Source of the DNA: a virus
IMG/VR virus record: IMGVR_UViG_3300005086_000180
Span: 1 to 20,465 of that record
Length of the DNA stretch: 20,465 nt
Reading direction: 5' to 3' (one strand)
Shown here: piece by piece, positions 9,538-20,465 of the stretch
How the letters are laid out: each line of letters starts with the position of its first letter
Position numbering within the stretch: position 1 is the stretch's first letter
Program-made: the position numbers and the translations under genes
Notes under the pieces: generated by a model
What the model was told of the DNA's origin: nothing
The model's input: only the letters and a program-made list of their open reading frames with translations
Database searches by the model: none

Positions 9538-10527
9538 TTATAATTTTGCGCCTGATTTTATACACTCCTTGACATGATTGCATATCATATTTAAATCAAC
9601 GGTATAATGCTTACCATATATGGTTATATAAGAATATAATTGATTGTTTTCGTTGCGATTTATGCCAAAGGATACATTGTCTTTTTTAGATCCGGCTGCA
9701 GTATAAACATCAAATTCTGTATTAAATGTTCTTATTGGTGCAGGTGTAGTAGGAGCATGTTCATCAAACATTGTTTCTTGTCCTTGCTGTTCTAATTCTG
9801 CAAGGCTTGGCTGTGGTATGTCTTTAGATTCCTTGGCTTTTTGCTTAACATCATTAAGCTTTGGCTTTCCGTTTGTTTCATCATATACAGCTTTTTGTTC
9901 ATCAACAGACATGGTTGCCATTTCAGCAGCAGTAGACATTGATATATCGCCTTGTTTATAGCCTTTTTTAGCATCATCAATAAGGTTTTTGTCAATGCTT
10001 TCATGTCTGCCAACAGTGCTTTTAGATAATCCAGTTGTTTCAGCAATGATGTCTTGTACACGACAAGGTAATTTATGGCCGGATTCTTTATATTCGATAA
10101 TTGCTTTTTTTAAACGGCTTATTTCTTCGGTTAATTCGTAGTCCGTTTTTCTTCGTGTGGTACTGTTGGCAAGTATCAGTTTCATTTCTTCGGCTGTAGT
10201 TCCGCCCTTGCCATCGTCTATAATGCATGGCAGTACGGAAAGATTGTTATTACCTTCATCGTAAATGGTTTTGCAGCAGTACCAGCGGCGATGGCCGGAT
10301 ATTATTTTGTATTTTTCATTTTCTTTTCTTACGAGAATTGGTGTCATAAGTCCGAATAATTCTATTGATGCAATAAGCTGTTCATTTTGTTTTTTGATGT
10401 TAGCAGTGTCTTTTACGGCATAGAAGTTGTTTTCGTGTGGGATGATATCATGGATTGATATATTTGTAATTTCCAGCTGTGGATTGTCCGATTGTTTAAG
10501 CATATTTTTTATATTCCAGCCCATCAC
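9538..10527 (-). CDS. parB: ParB/Spo0J-family partition protein
   Basis: This 329-aa protein has the ParB N-terminal CTPase/nuclease-like domain. SIELFGLMTPILVRKENEKYKIISGHRRW (roughly residues 52-80) includes the GHRRW box. It is followed by the central HTH (residues 130-190: RVQDIIAETTGLSKSTVGRH). The C-terminal region differs from chromosomal ParB: EQQGQETMFDEH, then a 70-residue domain rich in short strands. With ParA upstream it should segregate an extrachromosomal form. I saw no obvious TGTTTCACGTGAAACA-type parS in the window, so the site it binds is not known. The start overlaps the 71-aa gene (ATGA). Confidence 0.88.
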   Translation of the reverse strand: MMGWNIKNMLKQSDNPQLEITNISIHDIIPHENNFYAVKDTANIKKQNEQLIASIELFGLMTPILVRKENEKYKIISGHRRWYCCKTIYDEGNNNLSVLPCIIDDGKGGTTAEEMKLILANSTTRRKTDYELTEEISRLKKAIIEYKESGHKLPCRVQDIIAETTGLSKSTVGRHESIDKNLIDDAKKGYKQGDISMSTAAEMATMSVDEQKAVYDETNGKPKLNDVKQKAKESKDIPQPSLAELEQQGQETMFDEHAPTTPAPIRTFNTEFDVYTAAGSKKDNVSFGINRNENNQLYSYITIYGKHYTVDLNMICNHVKECIKSGAKL

Positions 10528-10739
10528 ACGACCTCTTTTCCTGCATGCTGCAGTTGCTTGGTAAGGTTAACAACTTCAACATGAGCAATGCCTTTATGAT
10601 TGAGCGTTAAATAAACAGCATCATCAAAAGCCTGCTTGCGGCTATGATATTGTTTGGCATTAATAATATTTGTCGTTTTTGGCAGCAGTGCTATTCCTGT
10701 GTGATAGCTTTTGTGATTTATCCGTAATACATAGCTCAT
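10524..10739 (-). CDS. Small protein between parA and parB, 71 aa
   Basis: The 71-aa product (MSYVLRINHKSYHTGIALLP...) has no recognised domain. It looks like a small mixed strand/helix fold with a basic character. It lies 15 bases after parA and overlaps parB by 4 bases (ATGA), so it is translated as part of the partition operon. A role in partition or in setting copy number is possible from context only. Confidence 0.6.
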   Translation of the reverse strand: MSYVLRINHKSYHTGIALLPKTTNIINAKQYHSRKQAFDDAVYLTLNHKGIAHVEVVNLTKQLQHAGKEVV

Positions 10740-10754
10740 TATTTAATCCTCCTT

Positions 10755-11504
10755 TTATTCCTGAATCGTTTTTGTATCCAACTTGGATACAAATTCTTTT
10801 ACAAATTCTTTATAATCAATAGCTGCCCGGCACTTTTTCGCATAGGTCATTACGCTCATTCCCATTGCATTTGCTTCCTTTACTTTTACACTGGTGTGAA
10901 TAATGCTATCAAAGCATATATAGCCTTCGCTAATAGCATTTTTGCGGATTTTGGCTATAATATCTTTATCCATTTTGTAGCGGCTATTAACTTTTGTTAT
11001 TAATACCCAAATATTTTTCTTTTCACCTACAGCTGATTCCATTTCACGGGCTTGTTTTATGGTTTCTCTTAGTCCATCAAGATTAAATTGGTCAGGTTCT
11101 ACAGGAATTAATATATCGCTGGCGACAAAGAAGCTGGCTGATGCAAAGGAGCTGCCAATATCAGGTGTGGTGTCAAATATGATGTAATCACGTTTCTTTT
11201 GGTATATGCCGGATACGTATTCCATGGCTTTGTTTTGATTTACGTCGATGGAAAGCATTTCTGGATCAGCTGGAATGTAGGCAAAGGTTGTCGATGTATT
11301 TATTTCCGGCTGTTTAATCCAATCTGTTCCTTTTTCCCAGCCGCCATAGATGCTTTTAAAATAGCGGGTTAGGTTTGCCTGTGGGTCATTATCAATAAGC
11401 AATGTGTTTTTATTGTGTTGGGCGCTAAGTTCAAAGCCAAGGTTATAGGCTGTAGTAGTTTTCCCACTTCCGCCTTTAAAGTTTGTGATACAGATGATTT
11501 TCAT
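10755..11504 (-). CDS. parA: ParA-family partition ATPase
   Basis: This 249-aa protein starts MKIICITNFKGGSGKTTT. The deviant Walker A KGGSGKTT (residues 10-17) with its signature lysine K10 defines ParA/MinD ATPases. LLIDNDPQANLTRYF holds the A' motif, and YIIFDTTPDIGSSF is Walker B. Later ILIPVEPDQFNLDGL matches the family. It lacks an N-terminal HTH (type Ib/phage length). AAAGGAG lies about 8 bases before the ATG. With ParB and the HUH Rep it forms a plasmid-like maintenance module. Confidence 0.93.
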   Translation of the reverse strand: MKIICITNFKGGSGKTTTAYNLGFELSAQHNKNTLLIDNDPQANLTRYFKSIYGGWEKGTDWIKQPEINTSTTFAYIPADPEMLSIDVNQNKAMEYVSGIYQKKRDYIIFDTTPDIGSSFASASFFVASDILIPVEPDQFNLDGLRETIKQAREMESAVGEKKNIWVLITKVNSRYKMDKDIIAKIRKNAISEGYICFDSIIHTSVKVKEANAMGMSVMTYAKKCRAAIDYKEFVKEFVSKLDTKTIQE

Positions 11505-11612
11505 TTGTTAGACTCCTTTTCTCATTTTTTCTTTTTTGTGTAAGGCTGTTTGGTTAGTAAATATGTGGTAAGTAGATATTTTTCAGTACGTCAGCGGATG
11601 ATTGGTATTTAT

Positions 11613-12431
11613 TTATCCGTCTGGGTTAGCTGTAAAGTGATTTTTCTTTTTAATCAGCTTATTGTTTTTATGCTGCATGTTATTTGTATTATTTTTTATA
11701 CGTATTAGTCTGTAAAATTGGTATTCGTATTCTAAGCCAGTGCCAAAATTATTTATGCTATTGGTTAATGAGTTTTTGTCTAAATAATAGCCTTTTGGTA
11801 CTCGTGGTTCTTGCAGCCACTTCTTACGATGCACAATGCTTTGTGTGACTGGTGGCTTTTTAAGGTTAGTGCTTGCCCACCAGCGTTTTTTAAATATCTG
11901 TGGTTGCGTGAAGAAAGCATTAACATTCTTTTTTACCATGTAGTTAGCTACTCTTTCGGCATCTTCGGGTTCGCCTGCGTATGGCCGTGGCTTAACAAAT
12001 CCATGTGTCCAGAGCTCTTTTATTAGCTGCCAGTCTAGCTTTGCCCCTTCAATTTTTATCATCGCATGATGATGCATCCTGTGTATCTTTGGGGTGCACT
12101 CTGTAACAAAAATGTACTTTACTACTGCATTTATTGATTTGCAGTGACGGATAAGGCGCTGTCTAAAGTTGCCTAGTAAGCGCTTAGCCTCTTTGGGGCT
12201 TGGTTCATGGCTGTATGACAGGGTAAAGAACCAGTCCCCAATGTTAAAGTTTTCTAATATTAGCAGCCTTAGTGAATCTACTGCATTTTTATTATTAATT
12301 TCTTCTTGTGACCTTGTAGTGGTTTCTGTCTTAGGGGCACGCTGCCTGTTCTTTACCGGAAGCCTTCTTGATTTTGTTACTTCGATGATATCTTTATTTT
12401 TTATTATTACTTCTTTATTCTTATATGACAT
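11613..12431 (-). CDS. rep: HUH-type replication initiator (rolling-circle Rep-like)
   Basis: This 272-aa protein shows the three HUH Rep motifs in order: FFTLSYS (residues 68-74, motif 1), the metal-binding histidines in HRMHHHAMIKI (H120-H121-H122), and the catalytic tyrosine with lysines in VANYMVKK (Y164). This arrangement is that of rolling-circle Rep endonucleases of the ORF2/G2P-like group, which nick one strand at a hairpin origin. The C-terminal 100 residues are basic. A minus-strand promoter TTTACA-17-TTATAA sits about 35 bases upstream of the start; the ribosome site is weak (GGTG). The 217-base gap upstream holds hairpins and a possible antisense RNA, fitting control of a replication gene. 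Confidence 0.8.
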   Translation of the reverse strand: MSYKNKEVIIKNKDIIEVTKSRRLPVKNRQRAPKTETTTRSQEEINNKNAVDSLRLLILENFNIGDWFFTLSYSHEPSPKEAKRLLGNFRQRLIRHCKSINAVVKYIFVTECTPKIHRMHHHAMIKIEGAKLDWQLIKELWTHGFVKPRPYAGEPEDAERVANYMVKKNVNAFFTQPQIFKKRWWASTNLKKPPVTQSIVHRKKWLQEPRVPKGYYLDKNSLTNSINNFGTGLEYEYQFYRLIRIKNNTNNMQHKNNKLIKKKNHFTANPDG

Positions 12432-14835: not shown

Positions 14836-15753
14836 ATGAACAGAAGTACCAAGCAGTCGATGAATGCTTTTGATAATGGCAGTTTTCAAAAGTTTTGTAC
14901 ACGACAAAATATTGATAAGGCTGTACATACGTTAGAAGGTTTTTTGAAGGGGATTTCTATTGATGATGAAATTTCTGATTTAGAAGTAAGTGAACTTAAA
15001 AATTGGGTTGACCAATATTTCGATTATATGAAGGTTCCTCCTTTATGTGAACTGCTACCTATAGTAAAAGGAATTTGCGAATATAAGAAAATAAGTGATG
15101 ATGACAAGGAAGATCTTTTATGGGTATGTCAAAATCTTAAAGAAAGCAGTGACTTTTATAATGTTATTACATCAGACATGCAGGTACTTCATGGCATGTT
15201 GCATGGTATCCTGGCAGATGGGAGAATAACTAAATTAGAATTAGAAAATCTCCAACAATGGTTATATGCAAATGAGCATCTACAAGGTTCATATCCTTAT
15301 GATGAAATTTCCGCGCTTATTTTAGGTGTTTTAGAAGATAATGTAGTGTCGAAGGAAGAAGAAGATTTCCTGAAGGTATATTTTGGACAATTTGCAAACA
15401 TTGACTTAAAGATGTCAGAAGATGAAATAGCTAATATAAAATCAATTATGACAAAGCAGGGGATTTGTGCTGTCGATCCGGTGATTAATATACAAAATTC
15501 ATTATTTTCTTTTACAGGTAAATCAACTCATGGTACACGAAAAGATATTGCTAATGTAATTACAACCAATGGTGGCGATTTTAACGACAGGGTAATTGAA
15601 AAAACAAATTATCTTATCGTAGGTAATGATGGAAATCCATGTTGGGCTTTTGCCTGCTATGGTCGTAAGGTTGAAAAAGCAATTAAACTTCGCCAGGAAG
15701 GTAGCCATATATTAATAATAAATGAACTGGACTTCTGGGATGCTGTTTCTTAA
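14836..15753 (+). CDS. BRCT-domain protein, lysogenic cargo candidate
   Basis: The 305-aa product has a C-terminal BRCT domain (about residues 218-305). It shows SLFSFTGKST, then RKDIANVITTNGGDF, a TNYLIVG strand, KVEKAIKLRQEG and a final NELDFWDAV with the conserved tryptophan. The N-terminal 200 residues are acidic helices in apparent repeats (DDEISDLEVSELKNWV; DGRITKLELENLQQWL; DNVVSKEEEDFLKVYF), resembling TerB-like or EF-hand-like helical bundles. BRCT domains bind phosphopeptides or DNA ends. It lies between repressor and integrase on the lysogenic strand, where conversion or exclusion genes often sit. GGAGTGAT lies upstream of the ATG. The function is unknown. Confidence 0.72.
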   Translation: MNRSTKQSMNAFDNGSFQKFCTRQNIDKAVHTLEGFLKGISIDDEISDLEVSELKNWVDQYFDYMKVPPLCELLPIVKGICEYKKISDDDKEDLLWVCQNLKESSDFYNVITSDMQVLHGMLHGILADGRITKLELENLQQWLYANEHLQGSYPYDEISALILGVLEDNVVSKEEEDFLKVYFGQFANIDLKMSEDEIANIKSIMTKQGICAVDPVINIQNSLFSFTGKSTHGTRKDIANVITTNGGDFNDRVIEKTNYLIVGNDGNPCWAFACYGRKVEKAIKLRQEGSHILIINELDFWDAVS

Positions 15754-15892: not shown

Positions 15893-16999
15893 ATGCAGCA
15901 AAAAGGTAATGGCTCTATCGTTTATGATAAAGTTAATAAAAGTTACCGTGCGTTCGTCGTTACACCAGCTGGCAAGCGTATTTCTAAAAGATTTAAAGTC
16001 CAGGCTGATGCGGTCGAATGGAAAAATGAGCAATTAGCAGATATTAGCCGTAATAGCTTTATAGAACCTAATAAGATTTGTTTAGGTGATTGGATTGTAA
16101 AATGGTTGGATACTTATAAGAAAGATAGCATTAAACAACGCACTTATGAGCGCTATATTTCTTTGGCCAAACATTTAACACCACTGGCAGGTGTTAAGTT
16201 ACAGGACTTACATCCAGCAGATGTTCAGGAACTATATAAAAATATGCCGGGGTTATCTGCATCAACTATTAATAAGGTCCATAAGCTTTTAAAAGATGCT
16301 ATGAATAAAGCTTTTGAACTAGAAATGACACGTAAAAACATTATGGGACAGGTAGTTCCGCCCAAGTTTGAGAAAAAAGAGATTGAGATATTTAATCGTG
16401 ATGAAATCGCATTAATCTTAAAAACTGCCCATGAAACAAAAAAATACCAGCGGTATTATCCGATGATATTGTTAGCTGCTACTACAGGTATGCGGTTAGG
16501 TGAGGTTTTAGGACTGCGCTGGTGTGATGTATTATTTAATAGTAGTCAGGTGTTTGTGCGTAAATCATTGCAAAATTCTTTGACGGCTGGTTTTCTTCTC
16601 GAATCTCCAAAGACAAAAGCTGGTGTGCGGAAAATCTTTTTGACTAATGATGTTGTGCGAGAACTACAGGAATTAAAAAAGCATACTATTAATATGGATA
16701 TTAATCAAGAAACATTATGTTTTAGAACAACAACGGATAATCCGATTGCACCAAATAACTTCGAGCGTATGTGGAAAAAACTTTTGACATTTGCAAATGT
16801 TCAATATCGTAACTTTCACGTTCTGCGGCACACGCATGCCACTGAATTACTAGCGTCCGGTAATCCTCTTGTCGATACGGCTAAGAGATTGGGACATTCA
16901 CGAGTGAGCCATACCTATGAGCTGTATGGACATGCAATTCCCGGATCAGACAAAAAAATTGCTGACTTTGTTCAGCAATTGTATGTAATCCCTAAGTAA
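15893..16999 (+). CDS. int: Tyrosine integrase (phage)
   Basis: This 368-aa recombinase is complete. The N-terminus is an arm-binding domain (residues 6-50, GNGSIVYDKVNKSYRAFVV...WKNEQL). The SAM-like core-binding domain is at about 62-160. The catalytic domain follows, with R201 in GMRLGEVLGLRW, a lysine in the KTKAGVRK strand, H309-x2-R312 in HVLRHTH, H335 in LGHS, and nucleophile Y345 in ELYGH. AAAGGAGG lies 10 bases or more upstream. The att-like tRNA fragment is about 160 bases downstream, the typical place. It should integrate and excise the phage at a tRNA-Arg gene. Confidence 0.93.
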   Translation: MQQKGNGSIVYDKVNKSYRAFVVTPAGKRISKRFKVQADAVEWKNEQLADISRNSFIEPNKICLGDWIVKWLDTYKKDSIKQRTYERYISLAKHLTPLAGVKLQDLHPADVQELYKNMPGLSASTINKVHKLLKDAMNKAFELEMTRKNIMGQVVPPKFEKKEIEIFNRDEIALILKTAHETKKYQRYYPMILLAATTGMRLGEVLGLRWCDVLFNSSQVFVRKSLQNSLTAGFLLESPKTKAGVRKIFLTNDVVRELQELKKHTINMDINQETLCFRTTTDNPIAPNNFERMWKKLLTFANVQYRNFHVLRHTHATELLASGNPLVDTAKRLGHSRVSHTYELYGHAIPGSDKKIADFVQQLYVIPK

Positions 17000-17157: not shown

Positions 17158-17202
17158 CTTCTAAGCCGTGTGTCGCAGGTTCGACTCCTGCTTGGCGCAC
17201 CA
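17158..17202 (+). other. attR: tRNA-Arg(UCU) 3' fragment, attachment site (attR)
   Basis: The segment runs from the anticodon loop CTTCTAA (anticodon TCT) through GCCGT, the variable loop and a T-arm GCAGG-TTCGACT-CCTGC (17175-17191), to TTGGCGC and ACCA (17202). The matching 5' acceptor strand GCGCCAA, D-arm and proper anticodon 5' strand are absent upstream. It is therefore the duplicated 3' end left by integration into a tRNA-Arg gene. Orientation predicts that the intact tRNA lies beyond the left end of the prophage, outside this window. Confidence 0.82.
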
Positions 17203-17302: not shown

Positions 17303-17587
17303 ATGAACAGTTTTAATGCAGTACCAAATGATAATTGGTGTAGTCCTTTTTATGCTCAAAATGGCAAAAGGGTTACTGGTGGAGCAGCACGTAATTGTCG
17401 AATCAAAGCTGCTGGAGGGATGCTGAGAATACGCGAAAAGATAGAAGCTAATGTTAAACAGCCTTCTGATTTGTTTTGTCCAGTACTTCGAGTTGTAGTG
17501 ACACAGTATGGTGAACCGGTATTGCCACAAGGCTATTATCGGCCATCAAGTTTCAATGAAAATGCTCCTTTTCATAAAATACAATAA
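17303..17587 (+). CDS. Small protein of unknown function, 94 aa
   Basis: ATG 17303 has a strong GGAAGGAG site 8 bases upstream; longer in-frame starts run through the terminator hairpin and lack a site. The product (MNSFNAVPNDNWCSPFYAQNG...) contains KRVTGGAARNCRIKAAGGML and a strand-rich FCPVLRVVVTQYGEPVLPQGYY. I recognise no family. It lies between the att fragment and the decayed integrase and directly follows the 17250-17280 terminator. No room is left for its own promoter, so any transcript must read through that hairpin. Confidence 0.5.
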   Translation: MNSFNAVPNDNWCSPFYAQNGKRVTGGAARNCRIKAAGGMLRIREKIEANVKQPSDLFCPVLRVVVTQYGEPVLPQGYYRPSSFNENAPFHKIQ

Positions 17588-17629: not shown

Positions 17630-18745
17630 TTTAGGGATAATATATAAATTTTTCACCTTCGCAGCAATTTCATTTTCATAATTTGGAATAGCGTGTCCAT
17701 ATAGTTCTAAGGTATGCGTTATTTTACTATGACCAAGCCGACGGCTTACTTATACGATTGGAATACCTGCAGCAAGTAATTCAGTAGCGTGAGTGTGACG
17801 CAAAACGTGGAAGTTGCGATAAGGAACATTAGCTAGTTTTAAAAGATATCGCCAAGCCCTAGTAAAATTATTTGGCTTAACAGGCGTATTATTACGGGTA
17901 GTAAGAACAAACTGCTCTTGCTTAATATCTAATGCCGGAGCAGATAGTTTTAAATGCTTTAGAACGGATATGACATCATCGGTTAATTTTATTTTTCGAA
18001 CGCCGGCTTTTGTTTTTGGCGTTTCTAGATAAGCACCAAGTTCAAGCGATTCTTGCAATGAATGTTTAATGAATATTTCATTAGCAGTAAAGTTGATATC
18101 ACACCAGCGTAAGCCGAGTGCTTCACCAATGCGGATGCCGGTGGTTGCTGTTAGCAAAATAGTTGGATAGTAGCGTTCTAACTTTTTGGTATGAAGACAA
18201 GTTGTTAAAATACGTTCAATTTCAGCAGGAGTAAATATCTCAATTTCCTTTTTCTCAAAGCGCGGTGGTGAGACCATCGTCATGATATTCTTTTTTATCA
18301 TGCCTAGATCATAAGCTTTGGTCATCATAGCTTTTAAAACCTTATGCACTTTGTTTATTGTGCAGGCAGATAACGTAGGAAGGTTTTTATACAGCTTTTG
18401 CACATGTACCGGCTGCAGGTCTTGCAATTTATACCCAGATATTTCTTGCAGATGTTTTAAAAGACTTAAATATCTTTCATAGGTGCGTTGCTTTAATGAA
18501 TCTTTTTTGTAGGTCATAAGCCATTCTAGTGACCATTCTCCAACGGTCACGCTTGACGGTTCGACAAACTCACCTTGATTTATTTCGGTAAGCTGTTCAT
18601 TTTTCCAGGCAATAGCCTCAGACATTGTCTTAAAGCGTTTGCCAACTCGTTTTCCTTCAGGAGTAACGATGCCAGCCCAATAGCGTTGGCGGATTTTGTC
18701 AAAATAAATAGACCCATTGCCATTGGCTTGTTTTTTCTTAGACAT
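17627..18745 (-). pseudogene. Second tyrosine integrase, broken by an in-frame stop
   Basis: The frame from ATG 18745 is homologous along its whole length to the integrase at 15893 (GNGSIYFDKIRQRYWAGIV; KKNIMTMVSPPRFEKKEIEIF; HVLRHTHATELL). It reaches TAA at 17750-17752 after PIV. The same frame then continues for 40 more codons to a normal stop at 17627, reading VSRRLGHSKITHT then ELYGH. The stop falls where the first integrase has Asp328, so the truncated 331-aa product lacks the LGHS histidine and the nucleophilic tyrosine. A single base change from a tyrosine codon would suffice. GAGAGGT lies before the ATG. The element it served is likely immobile. Confidence 0.85.
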
Positions 18746-18843
18746 AAGTAACCTCTCTTTTTAATTTTAGTGAAAATTTAAAATAAAACTAGTGAAGCAG
18801 AGTTTGAAGTGTGATATATTATAAAAATAAAGGGTGTGATTTA

Positions 18844-19707
18844 TTGAATAATATAGATATATATAATTTAATATATAAGGATATTTTTGCTACAACAGCT
18901 AATAAAGCATGCTATGTATTTTTATGTGGTGGAGCAGCTAGTGATAATATAAGAGATATAATTAGAGCTTATTTAGAAAAAAAACAATTTCAAGTTCTTT
19001 ATCCAGAAGATTTATTTATAGAAATGTTAAATCGTAATAAAAAATCTGATTTATTAGAATATGAAACTTTATTAGCTGAAAATTCAGATGTTATATGTGT
19101 TATATGTGAAAGTATTGGTTCGGCAGTTGAATTAGGTGCATTTACACAAAATGATGATCTTAAACCGAAAATGGTTGTTGCTATTAATAAAAAATATGCC
19201 CGACAAAAAAGTTTTGTTATGATGGGGCCGGTACAACAGTTAAAAAATAAGAATAAAGATAATGTTGTTACTTTTAGGTCAAGTGATACTAATGAATTGG
19301 GAGAAAAATTGACGAAAAGGTTTAAATTTTTTCGACGAGAACGTAGTAATCAGAGTACAAAATTTGATCTTTTACGCACATATATTGGTTTTATCCCATT
19401 AGTGATATATTTTTATCAAATTATTGATAGAAAAGATTTATATCGCACTTTAAAAAATTATCTGAAATTAAAAAATGAATTACCGCTCAATTATAATGAA
19501 TTATTTAATGCTACTATAAAATATATTTTGAAAATGGGAACAGTTATAATGGAATTTAGTTTAGAGAAAAACGATGAAACATTTTTTTTGTCAGATAAGG
19601 GATATAAGGAAATATGTATGTCAATTAATTCTTCTTGGGCATTTGATCGTACTCGATTGCATGATAAAATAAGGTGTGCTATACTAAATAAACAATTAAA
19701 TAATTAA
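18844..19707 (+). CDS. Retron effector: nucleoside deoxyribosyltransferase-like protein
   Basis: The 287-aa product from TTG 18844 (AAAGGGTG upstream) closely follows the Ec86/St85-type effector layout. It has FLCGG (residues 26-30), YPEDLF (53-58), LLAENSDVICVICES (76-90), and GSAVELGAFTQNDDLKPKMV with probable catalytic Glu96. KSFVMMGPVQQL (122-133) follows. The C-terminal 130 residues are a helical, probably winged-helix DNA-binding region. GTG 18811 would extend it by 11 residues but has no clear ribosome site. In type II-A retrons this protein binds the RT-msDNA complex and is held inactive until phage triggers it; then it attacks nucleotide substrates. Its stop overlaps the a1 arm of the ncRNA. 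Confidence 0.85.
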   Translation: MNNIDIYNLIYKDIFATTANKACYVFLCGGAASDNIRDIIRAYLEKKQFQVLYPEDLFIEMLNRNKKSDLLEYETLLAENSDVICVICESIGSAVELGAFTQNDDLKPKMVVAINKKYARQKSFVMMGPVQQLKNKNKDNVVTFRSSDTNELGEKLTKRFKFFRRERSNQSTKFDLLRTYIGFIPLVIYFYQIIDRKDLYRTLKNYLKLKNELPLNYNELFNATIKYILKMGTVIMEFSLEKNDETFFLSDKGYKEICMSINSSWAFDRTRLHDKIRCAILNKQLNN

Positions 19708-19878
19708 CCACTCCTTTTAGTCTTGCATATTGTTATGACAATATGCTTTGGAAGATGTTTCGTCTTCTTAGGTTTTTATGCTTGATATTATTCCCTATTG
19801 CTTAGTCGCTAATGCCACATTCAAGTGGCATCATCAACTAATCAATAGCGAAATGTAATTTCGGTAAAAGGAGTGGTT
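19706..19878 (+). ncRNA. Retron msr-msd RNA
   Basis: a1 (19706-19719) and a2 (19865-19878) are a perfect 14-bp inverted pair. The base after a1 is G19720, in TTAG as in Ec86, and is the expected branching guanosine. The msr has stem 1 (19725-19732 with 19739-19746, loop 6) and stem 2 (19751-19757 with 19761-19767) with a GTTTCG loop, as Ec86 has. The msd is a long interrupted hairpin: 19795-19800/19843-19848, 19802-19806/19837-19841, and 19812-19818/19825-19831 with loop ATTCAA. A small stem CGAAAT/ATTTCG follows (19849-19863). Exact msDNA ends cannot be read from sequence. Confidence 0.88.
19865..19878 (+). promoter_or_regulatory. RT ribosome binding site buried in a2
   Basis: The only Shine-Dalgarno sequence for the RT, AAAGGAG (19867-19873), is inside a2 and pairs with CTCCTTT of a1. 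ATG is 12 bases further on. In the folded RNA the site would be hidden. Confidence 0.6.
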
Positions 19879-19885
19879 TTTCTTT

Positions 19886-20465
19886 ATGAAAGTTAATAAT
19901 TTATTAATAAAGTCGTTAAAATTACCTGAATTTAAAAATATAAAAGAATTATCTATTTTGATAGGTGTGAGTTCTAGGTTGTTGTATTGTCTATCGCAAA
20001 ATACAGAAAAATATTACACTCATAAAATTATTCCTAAAAAAAATGGTACGAATAGATGTTTATCAATGCCATCATATACATTAAAAATAGTACAACGGTG
20101 GATATTGAAAAGAATTATAGAGAAAATTATACCCTCAAAGAGTGCTATGGCATTTAGAGTAGGAAAGAATTTTGGATATAAGCAAAATGCAACTTTTCAT
20201 TCAGATACATTGTACATGTTGTCTATCGATTTAAAAGATTTTTTTGATAATATAAAAGCTATTAAAGTATACTATTTTTTTATTAGTATTGGATATTGTG
20301 AATTCGCAGCAATGATTTTAACAGATATATGTACATTGAATGATAAGTTACCACAAGGTGGTGTTTGTTCGCCAGCATTGTCAAATTTACTATCATTGTC
20401 TTTAGATAAACGTCTTATTGGTTTAAGTGAAAAGAGAGGGATAAGGTTTACACGCTATGCTGATG
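19886..20465 (+). CDS. Retron reverse transcriptase (partial, C-terminus beyond window)
   Basis: The frame from ATG 19886 runs 193 codons to the window edge with no stop. It shows the retron-specific NAxxH motif as NATFH (residues 101-105), RT motif A LSIDLKDFFDNI (Asp115), motif B LPQGGVCSPALSNL (155-168) and TRYAD (189-193) at the cut, the start of YADD. GFRVG/RVGKNFGYKQ type residues precede NAxxH as in Ec86. The thumb and VTG motif are outside the window. It should reverse transcribe the msd using G19720 as primer. It is 178 bases after the effector, in the same direction. Confidence 0.93.
   Translation, partial: MKVNNLLIKSLKLPEFKNIKELSILIGVSSRLLYCLSQNTEKYYTHKIIPKKNGTNRCLSMPSYTLKIVQRWILKRIIEKIIPSKSAMAFRVGKNFGYKQNATFHSDTLYMLSIDLKDFFDNIKAIKVYYFFISIGYCEFAAMILTDICTLNDKLPQGGVCSPALSNLLSLSLDKRLIGLSEKRGIRFTRYAD

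Follow-up and report, generated by a model that had tools for sequence, protein, structure and literature searches.

A type II-A retron of the Ec86/Eco1 branch from a low-GC host, next to a prophage

The stretch of DNA analysed here (the window, 20,465 bp) is a complete IMG/VR record, classed as linear. Its right end carries a retron whose three parts, an effector gene, an msr-msd non-coding RNA (ncRNA) and a reverse transcriptase (RT) gene, follow one another in the order in which the original prediction had them, each where it had been placed, with the RT incomplete at the record end. The left 15.8 kb are phage DNA, with genes for a capsid protein, a ClpP-like protease, a portal protein, a large terminase and an HTH protein, and two integrase genes lie between this part and the retron (Table 1).

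Table 1. Retron parts and neighbouring features in the window
Feature	Position	Strand	Remarks
First integrase	15893-16999		
tRNA 3'-half look-alike	17159-17202		UCU anticodon, CCA end; found by eye
Small frame	17303-17584		no Pfam match
Second integrase	17750-18745	-	
AGGGTG, likely ribosome-binding site of effector	18831-18836	+	found by eye
NDT-like retron effector	18844-19707	+	287 aa; TTG start, stop TAA 19705-19707
a1 arm, AACCACTCCTTTTA	19706-19719	+	starts at base 2 of effector stop codon; holds anti-SD CTCCTTTT
Branching-G candidate	19720	+	first base 3' of a1
msr stem-loop 1	19725-19746	+	
msr stem-loop 2, GGAAGATGTTTCGTCTTCT	19750-19768	+	best conserved stem-loop of the ncRNA; also terminator-like
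Probable msd template region	19769-19864	+	long hairpin 19795-19848; probable extent
a2 arm, TAAAAGGAGTGGTT	19865-19878	+	holds RT Shine-Dalgarno AAAAGGAG at 19866-19873
Retron reverse transcriptase	19886-20465	+	ATG 19886; 193 aa present; record end cuts at YAD

The effector had been described as NDT-like on the strength of three peptide motifs, all of which were located (FLCGG at residue 26, YPEDLF at residue 53 and GSAVELGAF at residue 92). When set against retron profiles, the protein matched PADLOC NDT_II-A (3.5e-78) and scored 177.1 bits with the NCBIfam model NF038232, 'retron St85 family effector', for which the cut-off is 100; no Pfam family matched at E 0.1. Its best PDB chain was the Ec86 effector (5e-20). 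An AlphaFold2 model of the effector, made from 12 sequences (mean pLDDT 84.6), has the fold of this protein: three Eco1/Ec86 entries came top in Foldseek (E 9.8e-13 to 9.7e-12), and VIA gave Z scores of 16.5-18.5 over 262-263 residues for three Eco1/Ec86 chains, the best being 8qbk_E (Z 18.5, rmsd 4.0, 262 residues). The active-site glutamate is present as well. E96 aligns with E106 of the Eco1 effector, where the E106A chain 8qbl has alanine, and the PDB entry title names E106A as the mutation in the inactive Eco1 filament; E96 is invariant in 14/14 aligned effectors.

In Eco1, the RT and msDNA restrain the effector, phage infection activates it, NAD is cleaved and growth stops. NAD is not assured as the substrate in the window, because the effector is only 24-25% identical to that of Eco1/Ec86. 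The same fold also occurs in DNPH1, MilB and deoxyribosyltransferases, and the DNPH1 and MilB chains rank directly after those of Eco1/Ec86, with Z scores of at most 12.7 over about 120-135 residues (model residues ~20-167); the best non-retron chain among the matches listed had Z 12.7 over 134 residues. The locus might therefore be a working type II-A retron whose effector acts on a nucleotide other than NAD, such as (deoxy)nucleoside monophosphates. However, among the 50 matches listed, only the three Eco1/Ec86 chains matched the whole model, including its C-terminal part, and they also had the highest Z scores, and we consider a different substrate unlikely.

Effector searches of genome samples, which overlap with one another, were run at a profile threshold of E 0.001 and followed by a phmmer check for an RT. 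Two samples from the phylum of Planomicrobium gave matches in 9/398 genomes (4 below 1e-20) and 10/392 genomes (5 below 1e-20), and a sample from the phylum of a Bacteroidetes-titled genome gave 10/296, all 10 below 1e-20. Further samples gave 3/298 (2 below 1e-20), 2/58 (1), 2/200 (1) and 6/150 (1), those below 1e-20 having already been found. The original prediction had treated the family as one described from enterobacteria, which is too narrow, as an effector with an adjacent RT also occurs in both of these phyla. Five weaker matches in the 398-genome sample were rejected; they lie in frames of 1119-1202 aa and align with a C-terminal section of the profile. In the 392-genome sample, two weak effector matches, L031 (7e-8) and L032 (2.6e-7), have an adjacent retron-like RT and are possibly retrons of a more distant kind; phmmer did not recover their effectors, and they were left out. 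Among viral contigs, a short-peptide-pattern scan, which can miss kin, found one distant RT (L004, 30%), and tblastn confirmed no effector relative there. The phage and plasmid collections held partial effector matches in 14 phage and 5 plasmid records, none of which covered 80%.

The loci found have two layouts. The ncRNA lies between the two genes in ten of them (the window, L002, L028, L029, L003, L027, L007, L015, L016 and L017), where 87-169 nt separate the effector stop from the opening of the RT frame; in Ec86 (E. coli BLR(DE3), L038), the 320-aa RT starts 162 nt after the effector stop. In the other eleven (L008, L009, L018-L024, L026 and L030) the genes abut, the RT frame opening at or before the effector stop. 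The effector tree and the RT tree each separated 11 rows with the ncRNA between the genes from 11 abutting rows by one branch (100/99), and both placed the window with L002, L028 and L029 and Ec86 with L015. Because the trees agree on the main groups, effector and RT seem to travel together. The two trees differ in smaller placements (L016, L003 and L002), and the long branches that meet at L016/L017 and at L023/L026 call for caution with the effector tree. Copies (L001, L005 and L006), L025, L004, which has the RT only, and the remaining weak matches were left out of the trees; in L024 and L025 both the effector and the RT frames are broken. L002 is a 4.4-kb contig of a Bacteroidetes-titled assembly, but both trees place it among retrons of Planomicrobium's phylum, and a binning error is plausible.

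The RT frame is open up to the record end, where a single base, G, follows YAD, and the final D of YADD lies outside the record. The NAxxH motif and the start of YADD that had been reported are both there, the former as QNATFH at residue 100, with LPQGG at residue 155 and YAD at the terminus. The protein matched PADLOC RT_II-A (6.1e-72), and its best PDB chain was the Ec86 RT (5.4e-29). Because the record end cuts it, the window RT stays below the NCBIfam RT cut-off (171 bits vs 235); the complete L029 RT, which is 32% identical to the Ec86 RT, reaches 253. In complete relatives the VTG motif of the thumb is relaxed to ITG (L002, L028 and L029), VNG (L003), IVG (L027) or VLG (L007), and it reads VTG in L015 and Ec86. 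The RTs of L002, L029, L003 and L027 are also ~50-85 residues longer at the C-terminus than the 320-aa Ec86 RT. We dropped this extension as a novelty: it is mostly absent from L028 and L007, and in the model of the L029 RT it has no confident fold, with block pLDDT of 42-65 from residue 321. The window ends upstream of this region of the RT.

The ncRNA had been predicted as 173 nt closed by a 14-bp a1/a2 pair, with a branching G. Its span is exactly 173 nt (19706-19878), a1 and a2 pair perfectly over 14 bp, and G19720 follows a1; by analogy with Ec86 it is the candidate for the branching G. From the effector stop to the RT start there are 178 nt. Dinucleotide shuffling of 19705-19885 (1000 shuffles) gave perfect end-to-end helices of at most 10 bp (mean 4.6), never 14, and the unshuffled stretch folds at -63.6 kcal/mol (z -9.17 vs 200 shuffles). 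We aligned the RNAs of seven loci, comprising the window, L002 and five loci from genomes in the phylum of Planomicrobium. The RNAalifold consensus holds the a1/a2 helix, two msr hairpins and a long msd hairpin. Both sides had changed in 22/42 pairs, as compared to 11.2 ± 2.2 in 500 shuffles and 6-13 in slid controls, and the covariation score was 0.472, as compared to 0.240 for shuffles and 0.116-0.230 for slides. The consensus structure is paired in 86.1% of cells, a percentage biased upward because the structure was derived from the same alignment, and the double changes are therefore the safer measure; the best paired helix is the second msr hairpin (91.1%). This covariation among seven related loci supports the RNA fold. 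By comparison with Ec86, the msDNA would be ~80-95 nt long.

A covariance model of the seven loci found no match to the ncRNA of Ec86 (L038), L015 or L017 at E 10 and matched that of L016 weakly (0.008), and the ncRNAs of the Ec86 branch have layout in common more than sequence. The sole Rfam match in 18800-20465 at E 10 was a chance match to an miRNA model, so no Rfam family detected this ncRNA. A terminator scan found one candidate, with 0.1 expected, consisting of msr stem-loop 2 and the T-rich run after it; the transcript could therefore be split. A promoter scan found 4 candidates vs 10.0 expected.

The retron had been placed at the edge of a prophage. This holds for the record as such, but the retron itself stands on the far side of the apparent attachment site, between the record end and a second, broken integrase gene. 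The first integrase is followed by a look-alike of a tRNA 3'-half, across which the two integrases face each other. ARAGORN found no whole tRNA, as expected if this half is an attachment remnant. Over 326 residues the second integrase shares 60% identity with the first, and it lacks its C-terminal part owing to an in-frame TAA; past this stop lies a stretch in which 39 aligned residues resemble the C-terminal end of the first integrase (59%). In G+C content the retron (0.269) lies below both the phage (0.369) and the second integrase (0.386). Because it stands past the apparent attachment remnant of the first prophage and beside the second, broken integrase, the retron may not be prophage cargo, and the most economical interpretation is that a second integrated element, or host DNA with the relic of one, adjoins the prophage.

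The phage itself gave no megablast match when the whole window was compared with phages. Its terminase is nearest to that of Caldibacillus phage CBP1 (65.6%); in the family of G754, 18/48 genomes matched the terminase, the best by score at 38% and one fragment at 45% over 194 residues. Genes of the ParB_N, ParA and rolling-circle replication (REP_ORF2-G2P) types lie at 9538-12431, and with its integrase, terminase, portal and capsid the phage looks as if it mixed plasmid-like and integrating lifestyles. A BRCT-domain protein (PF00533, 1.5e-4) is encoded beside the phage integrase, at 14836-15753.

The in-frame TAA suggests that the surrounding element may be degenerating, and the record ends inside the RT. 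The retron might thus be a decaying remnant beside the broken integrase, its RT broken or missing past position 20465. In contrast, the frames of the effector and of the present part of the RT are uninterrupted and retain the residues found to be invariant in the alignments, and the 14-bp a1/a2 helix, whose loss would be expected in a decaying element, is perfect. We therefore regard decay as very improbable.

Several relatives lie near genes of defence type (L003, L028, L007 and L029). At 4231-9788 of L003, from a Planomicrobium genome, the retron has as flanking genes a GIY-YIG/Schlafen-type helicase and a Thoeris pair (ThsA macro, ThsB TIR), and an FRG gene adjoins the L007 retron. L027 is a counter-example, with upstream genes that look housekeeping-like by eye.

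As a whole, the locus is best explained by a type II-A retron of the Ec86/Eco1 branch that works as Ec86 does, a reading to which we give a probability of about 0.88. The type II-A assignment made at the outset holds in both protein profiles, in Ec86 being the best solved relative of both proteins, in the effector fold, in the trees and in the covarying RNA. The most likely role of the window retron, by analogy with Ec86, is abortive infection by a toxin-antitoxin system whose effector cleaves NAD. A single transcript would carry all three parts, and the RT would prime from the G after a1 and copy the msd region into branched msDNA. The RT and the msDNA would then keep the effector inactive until a phage cue breaks their hold, upon which the freed effector, an enzyme of the N-glycosidase fold, would hydrolyse NAD and stop the cell. 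The locus is thus an ordinary, well-formed member of its branch from a low-GC host and an anti-phage element of an already known kind.

The one part that might surprise a specialist is the way a1 and a2 lie over the effector stop codon and the RT ribosome site. In 11/11 loci, the start of a1 falls no more than 26 nt upstream and no more than 1 nt downstream of the first base of the effector stop. The end of a2 ranges from 2 nt inside the RT gene to 17 nt upstream of its start; in Ec86, L003 and L017 the G after a1 is the last base of the effector TAG. In 8 members, Ec86 and the seven loci aligned for the RNA, the purine-rich site of the RT (weak in two) lies inside a2 and is paired with a1. 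The duplex of this site with the anti-SD amounts to -2.9 kcal/mol in L027, -3.9 in Ec86 and -6.3 to -8.0 in the other six. It is -3.2 kcal/mol in L015, and L016 and L017 form no stable duplex.

A ribosome ending the effector should free RT translation, because the RT site is in a2 and the effector stop is in or at a1. In the free RNA, opening 11 nt at the RT site costs 6.8-20.7 kcal/mol (11 loci). A ribosome footprint, of assumed size, placed on the effector stop lowered this cost by 5.1-15.3 kcal/mol in 10/11 loci and by 0.0 in L016, and a footprint 45 nt upstream shifted it by at most 2.6 kcal/mol either way. These calculations support the hypothesis that RT translation is coupled to the end of effector translation. 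The a1:a2 pair would mask the RT start until the ribosome finishing the effector displaces a1, so that toxin translation would promote RT translation, and RNA folded for reverse transcription would be shut off as RT mRNA.

We tentatively propose, at somewhat less than even odds, that a1/a2 is a translation switch in the Ec86 branch: a given transcript would act either as mRNA for the RT, for as long as ribosomes are completing the effector, or as precursor of msDNA, after the helix has closed. The overlap may equally have no regulatory role and result from the packing of a short operon, for which the odds are about even. Wherever only a few bases separate the end of a2 from the start codon, the ribosome site has to sit in a2. 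Tight spacing is kept in L015, L016 and L017, whose site is weak or missing; two of these, L015 and L017, come from the Bacteroidetes-centred sample, lack a good ribosome site and show the same drop in opening cost, and the drop is therefore not tied to a good site. Given also that L016 shows no drop and that the L027 duplex (-2.9) does not surpass the L015 one (-3.2), the pairing may follow from a compact operon. Against packing alone, the a2 site and the matching a1 anti-site are kept jointly across divergent sequences, and the effect of a ribosome at the stop codon is large and dependent on position in 10/11 loci. We found no prior description of a translation switch in retrons in the open-access literature, and earlier notice outside it is possible.

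With this locus, the best studied retron type gains a low-GC branch that has members in the phylum of Planomicrobium. The complete relatives (L002, L028, L029, L003, L027 and L007) allow one to ask whether the effector control and the triggers of Ec86 hold at 25% identity. The a1/a2 pair over stop codon and ribosome site offers a simple, testable answer to the question of toxin/antitoxin balance. Such a switch, if true, would tie toxin and antitoxin output and give a feedback limit on the RT, with the same layout from E. coli to Bacillota. It would also bear on retron editing tools, which usually keep the RNA and the RT apart.

Among known systems, Asa1 and Squ1 are type II-A retrons like that of the window, with demonstrated phage defence. 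In these two, the trigger is a phage adenine methyltransferase whose motif, GATC, occurs in both ncRNAs, and in Asa1 a phage glycosidase mutation also lifted defence (PMC12548924). In contrast, GATC is absent from the window ncRNA and from 11/11 compared ncRNAs, on which a GATC-based cue would therefore act differently; CCWGG occurs once in the Ec86 ncRNA and not in that of the window.

St85-like retrons (e.g. of Klebsiella phage 4LV2017) share with the window the NCBIfam 'retron St85 family' effector. Their effector and RT abut, whereas the two genes are 178 nt apart in the window; their best PADLOC models are PDLC02928/PDLC02939, as compared to PDLC02930/PDLC02941, and both trees set them apart.

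The nearest relatives found, L002, L028 and L029, have the same gene order, effectors 63%, 51% and 54% identical to that of the window and, as in the window, an a1 that starts at base 2 of the stop codon (4/4). Their neighbours differ from those of the window: a transposase-like gene lies beside L002 (by eye), KAP NTPase and DCD genes near L028/L039, and genes of the AbiEi/AbiEii type near L029/L040.

Ec86/Eco1 of E. coli B, also type II-A, differs in its effector, 25% identical, and in an ncRNA too diverged for the seven-locus model. It nevertheless shares with the window the order effector-ncRNA-RT, the NDT-like effector fold with its catalytic Glu, an a1 over the effector stop with a2 before the RT start (helix of 12 bp in Ec86, L038), and a second msr hairpin with a TTTCG loop (GGATGTTGTTTCGGCATCC in Ec86 vs GGAAGATGTTTCGTCTTCT in the window).
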